Origin: a virus
Virus record (IMG/VR): IMGVR_UViG_3300012924_000012
Coordinates: 1-54,110 of that record
Direction: 5' to 3' (one strand)
Length of the DNA: 54,110 bases
Part shown: in pieces, positions 22,655 through 50,876 of the stretch
Numbering within the stretch: the stretch's first letter is position 1
Layout of the letters: the number at the start of each line of letters is the position of its first letter
Made by a program: the position numbers and the translations under genes
The notes under the pieces: generated by a model
Seen by the model: the letters and a program-made list of their open reading frames with translations, nothing else
Databases searched by the model: none
What the model was told of the DNA's origin: nothing

Positions 22655-23959
22655 TCAATATGAAATTGTCTTGCAATATCCCAATTTTTGAAGTTCTGGA
22701 AGTTCTTTCTTCAGCCGGTCGCCAATATCAATCCGGTATCCTGGACTATTTGGGATATCAATTTCTTTGATGACTTCATAGGCTTTTTTAGACGATCCTG
22801 ATACCGTATTGGCTATTCCTGTAGCGACTAGAAGATAGTTACCAGCAGAGACCCATGTAGGAAGATCGATTAGCTTGCTTCCTATAATATGTGAACAAGT
22901 TCCAGCCATGATTTCCGCAGGATGTATATGTTCGTTATGATCGCAGTAGATCGGGATACCGCAATTTTCATCCCTTGGCTTGACGTTAAAAGGGAAGTCC
23001 CCCATTGTTACCACTACTCCTGTACAGATTCCTTTTTTTGTCTCTAAGGTATCGTATCCGTCCAATAAATCAGCCATCCATTCGGCAGGGTCGCTATCAT
23101 GTAGGGAAGTGATAATTTGCTTGTGTGGCCAGCCAAATCTTGCCGTTACTTCTAAAGGCCAAGCAGCATCTTTATCAACAATCGCCGCAGCATCCATATA
23201 GCCGGTATATCCGATGCTATGCAAATAGTCTGATAACGGTAAAAGGATTTCTCTAGCAAGCTTTTCAGCTTTTGTATAGTAAATTACCGTTCCTTGCTCC
23301 CCTGTATTGCATGATAGGTTTCCTGTCAAAAATTTCTTATGTTCAAAATTGATATTGAAATTCTCAGAAAATCCATGCTTACCAAACCACCCACCGACAG
23401 CGACCTCTATACCTGGCTTAAACTCTTGGAGAATGAAAGGCTGCTGCAATTTTCCTTTTTTCTTCCAGCGCCTTAGCATTTCTCGCATGTCACCCGCATC
23501 CTTTGATACGTAAGATAAGGCTTTGTCAGCATCGCCACTTGGCTTTGAGACATATCGTTTATTGGCATTCTTTTCAACAAATTTGATAGCATCATCATAG
23601 GAATGAAACGTTTTATACTCCATGATAGGGACACCGGCTTGCTTCCACACATCCTGTCCAATGCTTCGGTTTAGCTCCATTTCAGCACCCGCTACGTTCG
23701 GGCCGAAGATTGGATAGCCTAGCTTCCTATATGGTTCTAGTGCGACCATGTAACGGGTATTGTCTGATGTAAGGATGAGGTCGCTCGCCCCCATCCACTT
23801 CTGCCATTCGTTGACTTTTTCCACTAAACCATCACCGATTGGTAGGCGTTCACCATTTTTACCGGGAGCAATAAACCATCTCACTGTATGACCCGCAGCG
23901 ATACAGCGTAAGGCGAAATCGAGGAAATTACCGCCTACGTCTATGAGTAGTATTCTCAT
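22655..23959 (-). CDS. ATP-grasp ligase, PurD (GARS)-like
   Basis: This 434-residue protein starts MRILLIDVGGNFLDFALRCIAAGHTV, a Rossmann-like N-domain as in glycinamide ribonucleotide synthetase. FGPNVAGAEMELNRSIGQDVWKQAGVPI, RYVSKPSGD and PFILQEFKPGIEVAVGGWF follow the ATP-grasp order, with LEVTARFGWPHKQII at the metal-binding end. It sits inside the virion operon, so it is more likely to act on a virion part or nucleotide/sugar precursor than in purine synthesis. That is inference; the substrate is unknown. Confidence 0.75.
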   Translation of the reverse strand: MRILLIDVGGNFLDFALRCIAAGHTVRWFIAPGKNGERLPIGDGLVEKVNEWQKWMGASDLILTSDNTRYMVALEPYRKLGYPIFGPNVAGAEMELNRSIGQDVWKQAGVPIMEYKTFHSYDDAIKFVEKNANKRYVSKPSGDADKALSYVSKDAGDMREMLRRWKKKGKLQQPFILQEFKPGIEVAVGGWFGKHGFSENFNINFEHKKFLTGNLSCNTGEQGTVIYYTKAEKLAREILLPLSDYLHSIGYTGYMDAAAIVDKDAAWPLEVTARFGWPHKQIITSLHDSDPAEWMADLLDGYDTLETKKGICTGVVVTMGDFPFNVKPRDENCGIPIYCDHNEHIHPAEIMAGTCSHIIGSKLIDLPTWVSAGNYLLVATGIANTVSGSSKKAYEVIKEIDIPNSPGYRIDIGDRLKKELPELQKLGYCKTISY

Positions 23960-37751: not shown

Positions 37752-39809
37752 TTATCCTGGCGCTTGTGCCTGGGCGTCTTGCATCTGTTGTGGATTCACT
37801 GCACCTGGCGGTTGCTGGCCTGCCTTTGGTGGAGCCGGTACAGCCCCAGGGCGCGGTGTTCCTGCTACTCCTGGGGGGTTACTACCTCCTAAGCCTCCCG
37901 GCGTGCCTGGGTAGCCCTGTGGTGCGGCCTGTTGCTGCTTTTTCTGGATCGCTTGGATATGTTCTTGGATATGCTGGCGGAATTTCCCGTTTAGGTCGCC
38001 AGTTACTTGCGCGCCTTGTTGGTGTTCTTTGATATGTTCAACATCGTCATCAAGTGGGGAGACAATCGCAGGAATATTATTGACCATGAATTCATTTTCA
38101 ATCGAGGCCGGTACAGAAATTTTAGTACGTTCATCGATCAAGACGTTTTGTGCCATAGTCGGACCTAAAACAGCTTCATTTAGGAAATCAATCATCGGAC
38201 CAAGATCAAGTTTTCGACCATTTAGAACCTGCGGCGGCATACCACGTAAAACATTCATCCAAGAGATCATTTGTTGATTGTTCTGCGCACCCATCGCTTT
38301 ATCTGCACCTAACCATTTGAACCAATACCGATGTCCAACCTGTTGCGGTGGAATTTTTTCAATAGAACTCTGTACGCCATGCTCGCCATCAATCATGACG
38401 GCTAGTTCTTCATCACGGAATTGTAAATCTAGGTCATAAAACCATTCCATGATTCGATTCATAATTCCAAATTCAAAACGCTTAACTACATCTCCAATCG
38501 TTGCCATTGCTTCTTGGCTTTGTGCGCCAATTGCTTGTGCATTTTTCTTTCCTGACGGTGGACGACCAAGCATTATTTCATTTACATCCATCGATTCCAT
38601 GATCTGAGCTTTGATCGCGCCCTTAATCGTCAAAGCATGTTGATAAAGTGGCGGGAATTCCACTACCTTAGTGTCATTTGGATTGGTAGACCAGACAGCA
38701 GCCATTGCCATAACCATAGACGAATATTGTGGATTCTTTAATGGGTCTGTCATCACGATTGGCATAAGAGAATACATTGCCGAATCCATTCCCATATTAG
38801 TAATATCGTTTAATTCATATTGCAATGGTGCGACATTCTTAACTTTAGAGCGCCCCCAAAATGAACCAGCAACTTTATCTACTGGCTCAGAAATCATCGG
38901 GATTTTTTGGTTCCAATAAGGATTAGCAATGATTCCTAGTACATTATCCGGTCCACCAAGATATATAATTGCTGGCTTCTTTTCACCATCAAGTTTTAAC
39001 TTGGCAAATACCATATAAATCAAGCCAAATTTTTGACCTGATTTCAATTTAATCCCGGCCTCTGCTGTCCTAGCTTTTTCAGCCCAAATTACTTTTTCAT
39101 CTCCTGCATCTTTCGTCAAAAGCTTGACTTGGCTCTTGAGAAATATTCCTTCCTCGACCATATCGTCAATTGCATCGGTTGTTAGCCGCATTGCGACTGC
39201 GACGATTTCGGCATCTTGAATATCTGAGACAGTTGCTGGAAAGACCCATAAATCTTGAGCCGGAATAACTGTTAATTCTGGTCCTTCATCAATGATTGTT
39301 TCAGTCTCTACATCGGGATAATCCTCTGTCGTACCGTCAAGCGTCTTCTGAACTTTTCGCGTGATTTTCCGTTCTTTACGCTTCCATCCGGGCATAACGG
39401 ACCATTGCCCCTCGATATCACCGTTTAGAAATAAAGTAGATGCTACAGCCCGGAGGTTCGTATCTTTGATATACCGTTGCAAGATAGATAGCGTTGCTAT
39501 TGGCATGTCACCCTGTTCTGAAACTACCTCAAGGTTATTCCCAACATTGGGAAAGCACATCCCAGTAAAGCGTTTTCTACGCGCTTCTAATGCATCATGT
39601 ACGATAGGCTCAAATATTTCTGAATCACCGTCATATTGCTGATTATCGCCAAGCTCGCAGTTATAGATATCCCAGCATTCTTCTATTGAATCATTTTGAT
39701 CTTTCTTTTCCTCACGAAATCCGGTAATTATTTGATCGTAAAGCCTTGCGCATTTCTCTTGCAATTGCTTATTCGATGCATAATTTTTGATTTTTTCTTC
39801 AGCCATCAT
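37752..39809 (-). CDS. Portal protein
   Basis: This 685-residue protein has the size and plan of podovirus portals: acidic N-terminus (QNDSIEECWDIYNCELG), WGRSKVKNVAPLQYELNDITNMGMDSAMY (the conserved stem-helix region), and AQAIGAQSQEAMATIGDVVKRFEFGI. A long C-terminal tail rich in Gln, Pro and Gly could be the barrel or disordered end. The portal makes the 12-fold DNA entry ring. It follows the terminase and a small coiled-coil gene. Confidence 0.85.
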   Translation of the reverse strand: MMAEEKIKNYASNKQLQEKCARLYDQIITGFREEKKDQNDSIEECWDIYNCELGDNQQYDGDSEIFEPIVHDALEARRKRFTGMCFPNVGNNLEVVSEQGDMPIATLSILQRYIKDTNLRAVASTLFLNGDIEGQWSVMPGWKRKERKITRKVQKTLDGTTEDYPDVETETIIDEGPELTVIPAQDLWVFPATVSDIQDAEIVAVAMRLTTDAIDDMVEEGIFLKSQVKLLTKDAGDEKVIWAEKARTAEAGIKLKSGQKFGLIYMVFAKLKLDGEKKPAIIYLGGPDNVLGIIANPYWNQKIPMISEPVDKVAGSFWGRSKVKNVAPLQYELNDITNMGMDSAMYSLMPIVMTDPLKNPQYSSMVMAMAAVWSTNPNDTKVVEFPPLYQHALTIKGAIKAQIMESMDVNEIMLGRPPSGKKNAQAIGAQSQEAMATIGDVVKRFEFGIMNRIMEWFYDLDLQFRDEELAVMIDGEHGVQSSIEKIPPQQVGHRYWFKWLGADKAMGAQNNQQMISWMNVLRGMPPQVLNGRKLDLGPMIDFLNEAVLGPTMAQNVLIDERTKISVPASIENEFMVNNIPAIVSPLDDDVEHIKEHQQGAQVTGDLNGKFRQHIQEHIQAIQKKQQQAAPQGYPGTPGGLGGSNPPGVAGTPRPGAVPAPPKAGQQPPGAVNPQQMQDAQAQAPG

Positions 39810-39997
39810 TTTTTCCGGGAGGTCGTTGTCGGTTTTTTCTCAACTATTTTTTGCATTTCTTTGATTTTCTTTTCCGCCTCACGTTTAGCCGCAGCCATGC
39901 GAGTACGATCTGCTTCAATTTCTTTGGCACGGGAAAGCGTATGCATATCCTCTATCGCTCGCCACTTTGCCTCATCAAATGATTTACTCGTTGCCAT
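39806..39997 (-). CDS. Small coiled-coil protein between terminase and portal
   Basis: This 63-residue protein starts at ATG 39997, inside the last codons of the terminase, behind GGGAAG. It is a single charged helix (AKWRAIEDMHTLSRAKEIEADRT...) with a KKPTTTSRKK end. Its stop overlaps the portal start. Possible packaging or portal-assembly accessory factor. Confidence 0.6.
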   Translation of the reverse strand: MATSKSFDEAKWRAIEDMHTLSRAKEIEADRTRMAAAKREAEKKIKEMQKIVEKKPTTTSRKK

Positions 39998-40736
39998 ATC
40001 GTCTTCCCGGTCTTGAGGTTCTATACGAAATACCACCTTGCGTTGTCGTGTAATGTCCTGATTTTTCATTTGAATATGAAAGCATTGGTATTGCTCTAAC
40101 GATATATCTCATGCAATCAAGAGCATGATCGTTTTTCTTAACAATTGCGCCGTTTGTATCCCTGCGATAGAAAGGAAGTTCTTTTAAGAGATTGCTTAGA
40201 GTATTGAATATTTTCAATCTTCCAGATGTCATACGTTGATAAACATCATATATCCCAGCCTCCCTAGCATTATCTGCCAATGCTAGTTTTAGACCTTCAT
40301 TTCTGTATAACTGAATCAACTTTTCGCCGTCAATTTGTGATTTACCCTGAGACGCTGGATCAATAAATCCTGTCATTTCTCCGCGAGCTTTGATTGCTGA
40401 AGCATGGACGGCAGGCTCTGCCATTCCTTGATAATGTTCGGAATAGAGATAAAGTACATCAGATTCACGGTCTAATGCAGCCCATACAGCAGCCGTCTTA
40501 TTCCAACCAACGTCTAGGGCATAACCTTTAGGCCAATATTTCGGCAGTTCAAACGGTTCAACTATTAATTCTTGTATGTCAATTGGATATACCTTTCCTG
40601 AACCGATGGAAGGAATACCTTTTGCCCTGGCTTCACGTTCATGAACAGGAATTGATTCCCAAAGTTCCTTTTTAGTCGCTTCGTCAAGGTGTAAAACCTG
40701 ATCCCAATTGCAAGTTATATAGAATTTACCTAACAC
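39984..40736 (-). CDS. Terminase large subunit, C-terminal nuclease part
   Basis: This 250-residue segment carries the RNase-H-like nuclease domain: GYALDVGWNKTAAVW with catalytic D75, FIDPASQGKSQIDGEKL, and KKNDHALDCMRYIVRA with the last acidic residue. It is in the same frame as the ATPase part upstream. Only one TGA (40749-40751) and four codons separate it from that part. Translation could restart at GTG 40736 (weak GAG upstream), or ribosomes may read through. See the finding. Confidence 0.9.
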   Translation of the reverse strand: MLGKFYITCNWDQVLHLDEATKKELWESIPVHEREARAKGIPSIGSGKVYPIDIQELIVEPFELPKYWPKGYALDVGWNKTAAVWAALDRESDVLYLYSEHYQGMAEPAVHASAIKARGEMTGFIDPASQGKSQIDGEKLIQLYRNEGLKLALADNAREAGIYDVYQRMTSGRLKIFNTLSNLLKELPFYRRDTNGAIVKKNDHALDCMRYIVRAIPMLSYSNEKSGHYTTTQGGISYRTSRPGRRYGNE

Positions 40737-40748
40737 AATGGTCTCGCA

Positions 40749-41447
40749 TCATTTTTTAGGTTCACCGCAAGTACCATGTTCCATAAACGACTGTGTCACC
40801 TCTGTCATGCCGAGCATTGGTGTAAAAGTTAGGATCACTAGGCCGTTTGTCGTCATGGTCCTGATGAGACCTTCAGAATAGATCGGCATAGGTGGCTCCT
40901 CATCTAACCATACGCCCTGTTGCTCTGTACCTTGCCAAGCCTCGCGGCCCTGGTCATAGGACTTTAATTGCACAACTGAACGACCACCAGAAAGATGCTT
41001 TACATAAATATTCTCAACAGCATCTGGAACACCACGTTTATTAGAGGTATCTATCAATAAATTACCCGGAATTAGACCTGTACCAAAATCGCCAATTTTC
41101 CCAAGCAATTTAAATTGAATGATGTCCCGAACGGTGGTTGCGGTATCGCCTCCAATCCACCAGGATACCGGCTTGTCAAACCGCCTTCCTATCCACCAAT
41201 CTGGATAACGCCCCGTTAAATGAAGGACCGTTTCGTAACCGCCAATGGATTCTGTCTTGCCAGTCCTGTTACCTGCGAGAACGAGCCGTTCCCGATAGTG
41301 TTTTCCAGCTTCAAAGAAAGCCATATGAACCGGATACCCGGCCCGGTTCTCAGGAGTGACGTAGAAGGTATCGATCTTGTTACGCTGCTTACGCCGCTCT
41401 AGCTCCCGAATAATGGTTTCGGTGGCATAGCGGTCTTCAGGACTCAT
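40749..41447 (-). CDS. terL: Terminase large subunit, N-terminal ATPase part
   Basis: This 232-residue segment has Walker A LAGNRTGKTES (57-67), Walker B GVWLDEE (178-184) and the coupling motif TFTPMLGMT. It is the packaging motor ATPase of a P22/T7-type large terminase. It ends EPKK-TGA, where a full-length protein would continue into the nuclease domain. The A-run before the stop does not give a frameshift solution, because both other frames stop within a few codons. Start ATG 41447 overlaps the previous stop. Confidence 0.9.
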   Translation of the reverse strand: MSPEDRYATETIIRELERRKQRNKIDTFYVTPENRAGYPVHMAFFEAGKHYRERLVLAGNRTGKTESIGGYETVLHLTGRYPDWWIGRRFDKPVSWWIGGDTATTVRDIIQFKLLGKIGDFGTGLIPGNLLIDTSNKRGVPDAVENIYVKHLSGGRSVVQLKSYDQGREAWQGTEQQGVWLDEEPPMPIYSEGLIRTMTTNGLVILTFTPMLGMTEVTQSFMEHGTCGEPKK

Positions 41448-41896
41448 GCAATGACGCCTGAACCAACCGCAAAGGCACCTTGGATAGTGACAGCCGGTGT
41501 AGTTACGTTCGTTACGGTGCCGACGAAGACCCGCATAGCTGCGATTGGAACCGTAGTAGTCCCGGATAGCGTTACGCCAGTCCCTGCGGCTAACGTCACT
41601 GCGCCCGAGCTTGTATTGACGTTTACATACATAAACATGAACGTCATCCCTAGAAAGACGCCTGGACCAATCGCATTGATGATGTTCGTAGCTGTATCTG
41701 TAGTTGAAGTTACCGCTGCCGTTGCGCCTGAACGAACATAGATACCTGCATCCATTTGCTGGCCGGTCAAAGTGTCAGTTACACCAGCAGATGCTAAAGA
41801 AGCAATAGCCGGGTTGCCGGACTGAAACAATGCAACAACATCGCCGAAGGCTGGGATTGCGCCTTGATTACCAGGGATACCATGAGAGAAAGCCAT
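41444..41896 (-). CDS. First late gene: small beta-rich structural protein
   Basis: This 150-residue protein starts at ATG 41896 behind GGAG. It is Gly/Ala/Thr/Val-rich with beta strands (AVTLAAGTGVTLSGTTTVPI). A QQMDAGIYVRSGATAAVTSTTDTA block suggests a virion protein of the decoration or fibre type. It is the first gene of the leftward late operon, ahead of terminase. Confidence 0.6.
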   Translation of the reverse strand: MAFSHGIPGNQGAIPAFGDVVALFQSGNPAIASLASAGVTDTLTGQQMDAGIYVRSGATAAVTSTTDTATNIINAIGPGVFLGMTFMFMYVNVNTSSGAVTLAAGTGVTLSGTTTVPIAAMRVFVGTVTNVTTPAVTIQGAFAVGSGVIA

Positions 41897-41908
41897 TTTG
41901 AATACTCC

Positions 41909-41934
41909 AAAAAAAAAGCCGCTCAAGGCGACTT
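41909..41934 (-). terminator. Leader terminator at the head of the late operon
   Basis: Leftward, AAGTCGC-cttga-GCGGCTT (41916-41934, one G-U pair) is followed by nine T, then GGAG and ATG 41896. A terminator before the first late gene is how Q-dependent lambdoid late promoters are arranged. Confidence 0.75.
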
Positions 41935-49179: not shown

Positions 49180-50073
49180 TTAATCCCCACAAAAACACTC
49201 AATGCCTTCATCCTGGCCATCAAACATGTCTACCTGGGCAATCGCGTAATCATGCATCTGTTGGTAGGAAGGACGGTCCGAGCGGAACCTAGCGCCACTA
49301 GGCTTTGAAGACAAACCCATCGACTCCTGTTTCGCCCACCATATCGCCCGCGAAGGCTTCTGTTTAATCAAACCAAGAATCCGATTCGCACCTTTTAAAA
49401 AGCAAAGATCACAATTCCCGGCAGGCGTTGTGCCATCAACGTTTTCCAACTCAAGATCAAACGGCTGATTGCGCCAGAAATCCCCAACCATCGTCCTAGT
49501 AACACCCGATTCCGCTAACGGAATAATCAACGTTTCCTTGGTAGTCTCCGGGGAAGGCCGAGCGCGTATCTTTGCAATCCTTCGTGGCTCATCAGCCCTG
49601 ATCCCGACCATCTGGTCCCAACCATCTTCCTTCCACCCCAAAGACTTCAAATGCTTATGCATCGCCCGTATCTTCAGTTCCACAGTACAAAACCGTGTCA
49701 CCGGATTAGGCAAGTATTGCCGCTTCCTGATGATCGCTTCCAACGGTTCACCATGTCGGCTTGCCGTCTCAAAGTTCACCACCGCATAACCCTTCTCATC
49801 ATCCCTGTATTCAACCCACACAATCGGTACACCCCACCTTGTCTCTATTTCATGGACAAAGCGCAATGTCTCCTCCATCTCCTTACCAGTGTTCGCAAAA
49901 CACACCACAACACCTTCAGGAAGCCCACTATTCGCCTCTAGGACTCGCCACAACATATAGGCCGATGTCCGACCACCAGAAACACTTAAACAAGTCTGTG
50001 AATCGATCTTAAAAGGATCACGCATAAAGTCACCAAGGTATAACGTAGCATTGCCAATTATCATAGGCTCCAT
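49180..50073 (-). CDS. PP-loop (PAPS-reductase-like) protein
   Basis: This 297-residue protein has the PP-loop SVSGGRTSAYM (30-40), which binds ATP pyrophosphate, VVVCFANTGKEMEETLRFV, and an RFCTVELK block typical of phage PAPS-reductase/sulfurtransferase-like proteins. Four late cysteines (CDLC, CFC) could hold a metal. It starts at ATG 50073, behind AAGGGG and its own promoter. The substrate is unknown; similar phage genes lie beside DNA-modification genes, as here. Confidence 0.8.
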   Translation of the reverse strand: MEPMIIGNATLYLGDFMRDPFKIDSQTCLSVSGGRTSAYMLWRVLEANSGLPEGVVVCFANTGKEMEETLRFVHEIETRWGVPIVWVEYRDDEKGYAVVNFETASRHGEPLEAIIRKRQYLPNPVTRFCTVELKIRAMHKHLKSLGWKEDGWDQMVGIRADEPRRIAKIRARPSPETTKETLIIPLAESGVTRTMVGDFWRNQPFDLELENVDGTTPAGNCDLCFLKGANRILGLIKQKPSRAIWWAKQESMGLSSKPSGARFRSDRPSYQQMHDYAIAQVDMFDGQDEGIECFCGD

Positions 50074-50092
50074 AACATCCCCTTTGAATGCA

Positions 50093-50121
50093 TGTATATC
50101 TTGCATCACCGGGCGAGTCAA
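50093..50121 (-). promoter_or_regulatory. Leftward promoter with ATGCAAG in the spacer
   Basis: Minus strand: -35 TTGACT (50116-50121), 17 bp, -10 TATACA (50093-50098), followed by TGCAT. ATGCAAG (CTTGCAT at 50100-50106 on plus) is in the spacer. The -35 lies in the last codons of the methyltransferase gene. Confidence 0.85.
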
Positions 50122-50876
50122 TAGCTTTTGTAGGCTTCTATACGCTCTTGTGCAATCCTGAAATATTCTGTATCTAGCTCAAAACCGATGAAGTTACGAC
50201 CAGTATTCAGGCATGCCACACCAGTGGTTCCACTGCCCATGCAGTTATCCAGTACCGTATCGCCCTCGTTCGTGTAGGTACGGATCAGGTACTCCATCAG
50301 GGCAACTGGCTTTTGGGTTGGGTGCAACCCTGCTTCCTTTTTATTGTCACCCGGTATCTGGATTATTGTGCACGGATTATGGCGGCCATCATTCACTGTC
50401 ATCCTGTCATCTTTTTCATAACCGTATTCGGTATGCTTTCCGTGCCCATTTGTATTCGTTGACCGGTACGGCTTTCCAGCTCTGTATTGCTTGTTGTAGG
50501 TTGGCAGAGATCGGTAGAAAACACATACATCCTCGTGGCGCTTCATCGGCATACGGTTGGCGTTTAGCGATCCGGTGTATTTGTTCACCTTGTCCCACAC
50601 CCAGTTGTAGCGAAAGTCTTTGAAATTTGATGCGATAAGGGCGCTGGTGAACGGCTGCGATGCCGTCAGTACAATGGCTGCGTTTCTTTTCGCTATACGC
50701 CGGTACTGCACCCAAAGCGGGTCGAATGGAATCACCGAATCCCACGCGCACGCCGTAATCCCATACGGCATATCGCACAGAATCATGTCAACACTCGCGT
50801 CAGGAATACCTTTCATTAACTCAAGACAATCACCGCAACGTAAATCTAATTGTATTTTATCGTTGCTAAAAATCAT
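50118..50876 (-). CDS. DNA adenine/cytosine-N4 methyltransferase
   Basis: This 252-residue protein has catalytic motif IV as DMPY (35-38), a variant of D/N-PP-Y, LHPTQKP (the motif after the target domain), and DNCMGSGTTGVACL (FxGxG-like SAM site) near residue 215, giving the beta-type order for N6-adenine or N4-cytosine enzymes. There is no partner nuclease. It may protect phage DNA from host restriction or regulate genes. Start ATG 50876. Confidence 0.85.
   Translation of the reverse strand: MIFSNDKIQLDLRCGDCLELMKGIPDASVDMILCDMPYGITACAWDSVIPFDPLWVQYRRIAKRNAAIVLTASQPFTSALIASNFKDFRYNWVWDKVNKYTGSLNANRMPMKRHEDVCVFYRSLPTYNKQYRAGKPYRSTNTNGHGKHTEYGYEKDDRMTVNDGRHNPCTIIQIPGDNKKEAGLHPTQKPVALMEYLIRTYTNEGDTVLDNCMGSGTTGVACLNTGRNFIGFELDTEYFRIAQERIEAYKSY

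Follow-up and report, generated by a model that had tools for sequence, protein, structure and literature searches.

The large terminase (TerL) is regarded as a hallmark of tailed phages, made as a single chain, and serves as a phylogenetic marker; some phage annotation guides name ATPase-domain and nuclease-domain terminase genes separately. The single-chain enzymes P22 gp2, D6E, P74-26 and T4 gp17 have in common the Terminase_6N and Terminase_6C domains, Walker A and B motifs, TFTP, the acidic residues of an RNase H nuclease and adjacency to the portal gene. In the D6E terminase, the lid residue is Y213 and the linker spans residues 230-241 (PMC5727402). Cutting T4 gp17 at the linker leaves its ATPase and nuclease activities in place and abolishes translocation (reviewed in PMC3012670 and PMC9958956). 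Division of a phage enzyme between genes has been described for RNA polymerase, which is encoded by one gene in T7-type phages, two adjacent genes in N4-type phages and two genes set apart by HNH or other genes in G7C-type phages (PMC5418858).

The locus described here differs from the single-chain terminases, each of which is one gene, in that it comprises two genes, divided where the ASCE core meets the lid. It lies in a virus record that is linear, 54,110 bases long and carries an integrase gene; the record was analysed over its whole length and is referred to below as the window. On the minus strand, the ATPase reading frame (gene 1, 41447-40749, 232 aa) stops at a TGA (40751-40749), and the nuclease reading frame (gene 2, 40736-39984, 250 aa) opens in the same frame with a GTG (40736-40734). 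The minus-strand letters at the junction are GGT GAA CCT AAA AAA TGA TGC GAG ACC ATT GTG TTA GGT AAA TTC. The initial annotation was right that the two parts share a frame and are parted by the TGA and four sense codons for C, E, T and I (TGC GAG ACC ATT, a 12-nt stop-to-restart gap at 40737-40748, minus strand), and its statement that both other frames stop also holds (ATG ATG CGA GAC CAT TGT GTT AGG TAA and GAT GCG AGA CCA TTG TGT TAG).

The flanks are intact, as they had looked from the letters alone. Gene 1 matches PF03237 (Terminase_6N, 2.9e-9) and carries Walker A (GNRTGKT), Walker B (VWLDEE) and TFTP; its residues N60, G63, K64, D182, E183, T207 and T209 are invariant. Gene 2 matches PF17289 (Terminase_6C, 6.5e-10), and its acidic metal-binding residues of the RNase H-like nuclease, D75 and D203, are likewise invariant; all catalytic residues are retained across the two halves. 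The best PHROGs matches, an ATPase-only family of 261 positions for gene 1 (phrog_31467) and a nuclease-only family for gene 2 (phrog_5653), were the first hint that these halves occur alone. The locus thus has the Walker A, Walker B and coupling motifs of a P-loop ATPase, the nuclease acidic residues, and a place beside portal and head genes as the sole TerL of a record that may be a fragment (there is one phrog_2 match only, and no second TerL). The ATPase and nuclease are separated by the TGA rather than carried on one chain, and we therefore file the window as a two-gene variant and not as a standard TerL.

All neighbouring genes discussed here are on the minus strand. The start ATG of gene 1 overlaps the upstream gene (41444-41926), a weak match to head scaffolding proteins, as ATGA. 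An 87-aa reading frame (39806-40069) overlaps the end of gene 2 by 86 nt and has a counterpart at 3731-3949 in L001, the closest relative of the window. It is followed by an intact portal gene (37752-39809, 685 aa, SU10_portal 2.2e-10) whose product has the same length in L001. Elsewhere on this strand, an ATP-grasp protein resembling phosphoribosylglycinamide synthetase (22655-23959, GARS_A 2e-8) is encoded amid structural genes, and at 49180-50876 a PAPS-reductase-like gene and a gene for a DNA methyltransferase overlap by 4 nt.

To place the cut in the protein, the sequence read through the TGA, about 487 aa, was modelled with AlphaFold2 (mean pLDDT 89). Residues 228-231 are the only internal stretch with pLDDT below 50 before the C-terminal region, and the TGA, at residue 233, falls in the same disordered loop between core and lid. 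The isolated ATPase domains of P74-26 and T4 gp17 align to model residues 24-282 and 26-280, and the nuclease domains of P22, SPP1, G20c and RB49 start at model residues 280-284; Z scores were 25.3 for the P22 nuclease (4dkw, model residues 280-462), 22.5 for D6E and 20.9 for the P74-26 ATPase. In the profile alignment, D6E Y213 and linker 230-241 match residues encoded by gene 2 (with a chain-numbering offset of three, which is our deduction). Together, the model and D6E alignments indicate that gene 2 encodes a last strand, lid, linker and nuclease. The cut is therefore predicted to divide the ATPase domain itself, parting the ASCE core from the lid. The original division into an ATPase part and a nuclease part stands as far as the order Terminase_6N then Terminase_6C goes, but has to be amended in that the lid belongs to the second part. 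When chain 2 is folded alone, the lid helices are kept and strand 241-246 of the joined model is lost, and the modelling suggests that the ATPase sheet of the partner chain may be extended by the start of chain 2.

Relatives were gathered with an ATPase query, with a nuclease profile and from bacterial genomes, and 200 non-redundant loci (designated by L numbers) were classed by profile searches: 93 are split, counting the window, 88 are joined and 19 are partial. The split thus falls at the same loop in 93 of 181 complete non-redundant loci and the remaining 88 are joined, a fraction that is not a population estimate because the loci were found with queries from the window's own clade and best matches were kept. 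Only one of the 181, L002, is broken outside this loop; its frame break near 2855, within the ATPase part, probably reflects a pseudogene or an error. Among named phages in the collection the joined form appears to prevail, with MW202785 a split exception. Split forms also occur in isolate genomes and prophages, including those of Sphingomonas melonis (strain AS2.3, L185), Vibrio galatheae, Acetobacter musti (L177), Phenylobacterium deserti and Azospirillum cavernae, and metagenome assembly is therefore not their cause. The initial annotation had suggested looking for relatives with or without a sense codon at the TGA, and here the outcome was divided: the three nearest relatives (L001, L016 and L017) are unsplit, L001 being one unbroken gene, with amino-acid identities of 82% (gene 1) and 75% (gene 2), yet the same loop is split in half of the wider set. 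To call the gene "interrupted", as was done at first, is thus wrong for the class.

The junctions of split loci are varied. In all 93, a tail of 3-25 residues (about 10 aa in the window) separates the ATPase domain from a stop, which is TGA in 65, TAA in 19 and TAG in 9; the relative frame of the halves is 0 in 14, 1 in 33 and 2 in 46. Leaving the window out, the halves meet in an NTGA overlap (26 loci), TRATG (8), a longer overlap (10), abutting genes (2), a short gap (3) or a spacer of more than 60 nt (42), and one lacks a standard start. Spacers reach 3.9 kb; the two genes are some 800 nt apart in L003, L005 and L006 and about 1.2 kb apart in L007. The same-frame, short-gap form of the window recurs in L199 (GAC TAA ATG), L151 (GGC TAA ATG), L165 (TAG, 27 nt, GTG) and L100 (TGA TAA ATG). 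No recoding mechanism fits three stops, all frames, overlaps and long spacers at once, whereas two independently started genes do. Wide spacers hold ordinary phage genes or, in three loci, HNH endonuclease genes placed precisely between the halves (L088, 3447-3986; L104, 2483-3001; L180, 2013-2567; HNH_3 with NUMOD4 in L088 and L104), and free-standing homing endonucleases may use the split terminase junction as a landing site.

Substitution patterns argue that both halves are maintained. dN/dS for the first and second half, respectively, was 0.007 and 0.086 in L063/L094, 0.006 and 0.013 in L069/L070, 0.05 and 0.07 in L021/L024, 0.063 and 0.072 in L030/L177, 0.095 and 0.125 in L072/L201, and 0.24 and 0.087 in L107/L194; that is, 0.006-0.13 in both halves for five of six informative split pairs, with the single value of 0.24 in the sixth. 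Judged by these ratios, both halves of the split pairs are under strong purifying selection, and the split terminase genes are, on sequence grounds, working genes. For the window and L001, dS is saturated, so we give only codon-position counts: third positions differ at 0.66 and 0.57 in the two halves, and other positions at 0.12-0.24.

On a tree of 172 loci, at least 28 changes between split and joined states are needed (58 with shuffled labels), and well-supported branches alone call for at least 15. The counterparts of 28 and 15 were 14 and 6 on a smaller tree under a mixture model, and separate trees for each terminase part gave 27 and 32 changes. In every tree the window clusters with L001, L017 and L016, all joined, which makes its split a separate event in its own lineage and, within this sample, private to that lineage. 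One pair of close relatives, L050 and L060, in which one is split (with a ATGCCTAG overlap) and the other joined, is suited to tracing such a change.

Given that about half of the compared relatives are split at the same loop, the stop in the window is most likely a gene border and not damage, and we consider it highly probable that its large terminase consists of two separate proteins, made by termination and restart and predicted to be functional. Restart at GTG 40736 to give a two-chain terminase, one of the options first listed, is supported by the many split relatives: the product would begin MLGKFYITCNWD, in the register of their starts (MSRFxVxATWD, MQLNKWYTQIAWE). For the window itself we nonetheless only infer two chains, because its three nearest relatives are unsplit. 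Further counting against this reading are the lack of a second near-identical copy of the exact junction in IMG/VR, the weak Shine-Dalgarno-like pairing at the GTG (-3.0 kcal/mol, compared with -3.2 for gene 1 and -1.7 at random sites) and the T4 gp17 linker-cut result. The unsplit nearest relatives, the missing second copy and the weak pairing would also fit an otherwise single-gene terminase with a private nonsense mutation or a wrong base call, as the initial annotation had allowed, or with an assembly error, leaving the virus defective or the record wrong at one base. We regard this as unlikely, and as a poorer fit than two chains. A random nonsense codon would be expected in the 19-codon loop only about 4% of the time, which, with 93 of 181 relatives split in that loop, makes the position of the TGA more than chance. 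The loop, with 19 codons between SF and KF against 8 residues in L001, is also 11 codons longer than that of its closest relative, so that a single base change cannot interconvert the forms. The start codon lies in the family register, and the adjacent packaging genes and catalytic residues are intact. A DNA-level search of phages with the window locus gave no match.

The remaining alternatives would join the halves after all. Programmed readthrough of the TGA, giving some joined terminase beside a short ATPase core, gains from the frame being open on either side of a lone stop, but halves that in relatives are ended by TAA or TAG, lie in other frames, have overlapping starts or stand behind long spacers could not be joined in this way, and a search of the record found no tRNA gene, which also disposes of a suppressor tRNA; we think readthrough very improbable. 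Frameshifting was rejected, as the other frames of the window stop within a few codons and relatives keep neither one stop nor one relative frame, as conserved recoding would. Reassignment of the stop codon was set aside because all three stops serve at this site among relatives. Between them, the varied stops, frames and spacers and the isolate prophages mean that the class as a whole can be explained neither by readthrough or frameshifting nor by assembly error. Rejoining by split-intein protein trans-splicing or by an intron has precedents in other phage terminases (PMC7156551; PMC3322345), and the HNH endonucleases in three spacers would suit it. It is, however, extremely unlikely here: ATPase tails of just 3-25 aa hold no intein half of the kind that marks a fractured gene, chain 2 starts at most about 15 residues before its domain in short-gap forms, and the 12-nt gap of the window excludes both intein and intron by size. 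That gap also contains no endonuclease gene, which sets aside a gene in pieces made by a homing endonuclease.

If two chains are made, translation of the ATPase core would end at TGA 40751-40749, with restart 12 nt downstream at GTG 40736 coupled to that termination. The second protein would comprise lid, linker and nuclease. The chains would reassemble without a covalent bond, with the first segment of chain 2 as an extra strand on the ATPase core, and ATP hydrolysis by chain 1 would move the lid-linker-nuclease unit of chain 2. That half of the relatives are split is surprising because the linker-cut T4 motor stops packaging. The artificial T4 gp17 is likewise a terminase in two pieces but is severed at the inter-domain linker, whereas the cut found in nature precedes the T4 linker position by about 45 residues and keeps lid, linker and nuclease on one chain. 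Such a cut may be tolerated for the reason that this unit is left whole.

An open-licence literature search turned up no report of a TerL naturally encoded by two genes, and the phrase 'split terminase' returned no paper. A close counterpart is GenBank MW202785 (podovirus ct2G2228), with the same split as the window in two adjacent CDS, each annotated 'large terminase protein'; its spacer is about 150 nt as opposed to 12 nt, and its feature table carries no remark on the split. The three gene arrangements of the N4-like RNA polymerases are identical to those of the split and joined terminases, in a different enzyme. Friedrich in 2007 reportedly described, going by the title, a homing endonuclease between the halves of a ribonucleotide reductase that stays functional; in that case an endonuclease separates the halves, whereas most split terminases here have none.

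More broadly, we lean towards the view that the motor of this clade is a two-chain machine that has many times been split, and perhaps rejoined, where ASCE core and lid meet. Chain 2 would dock by contributing a strand to the ATPase core, and DNA translocation would need no covalent connection from the ATP site to the lid. If half of the clade works with two chains, the core-lid link need not be covalent, which would bear on models of force transmission. Work on T4 holds that a covalent hinge is required for translocation, and a working split clade would conflict with it. Annotation pipelines would call such terminases 'truncated' or overlook the nuclease half. The clade offers a set of naturally split and naturally joined motors for testing.
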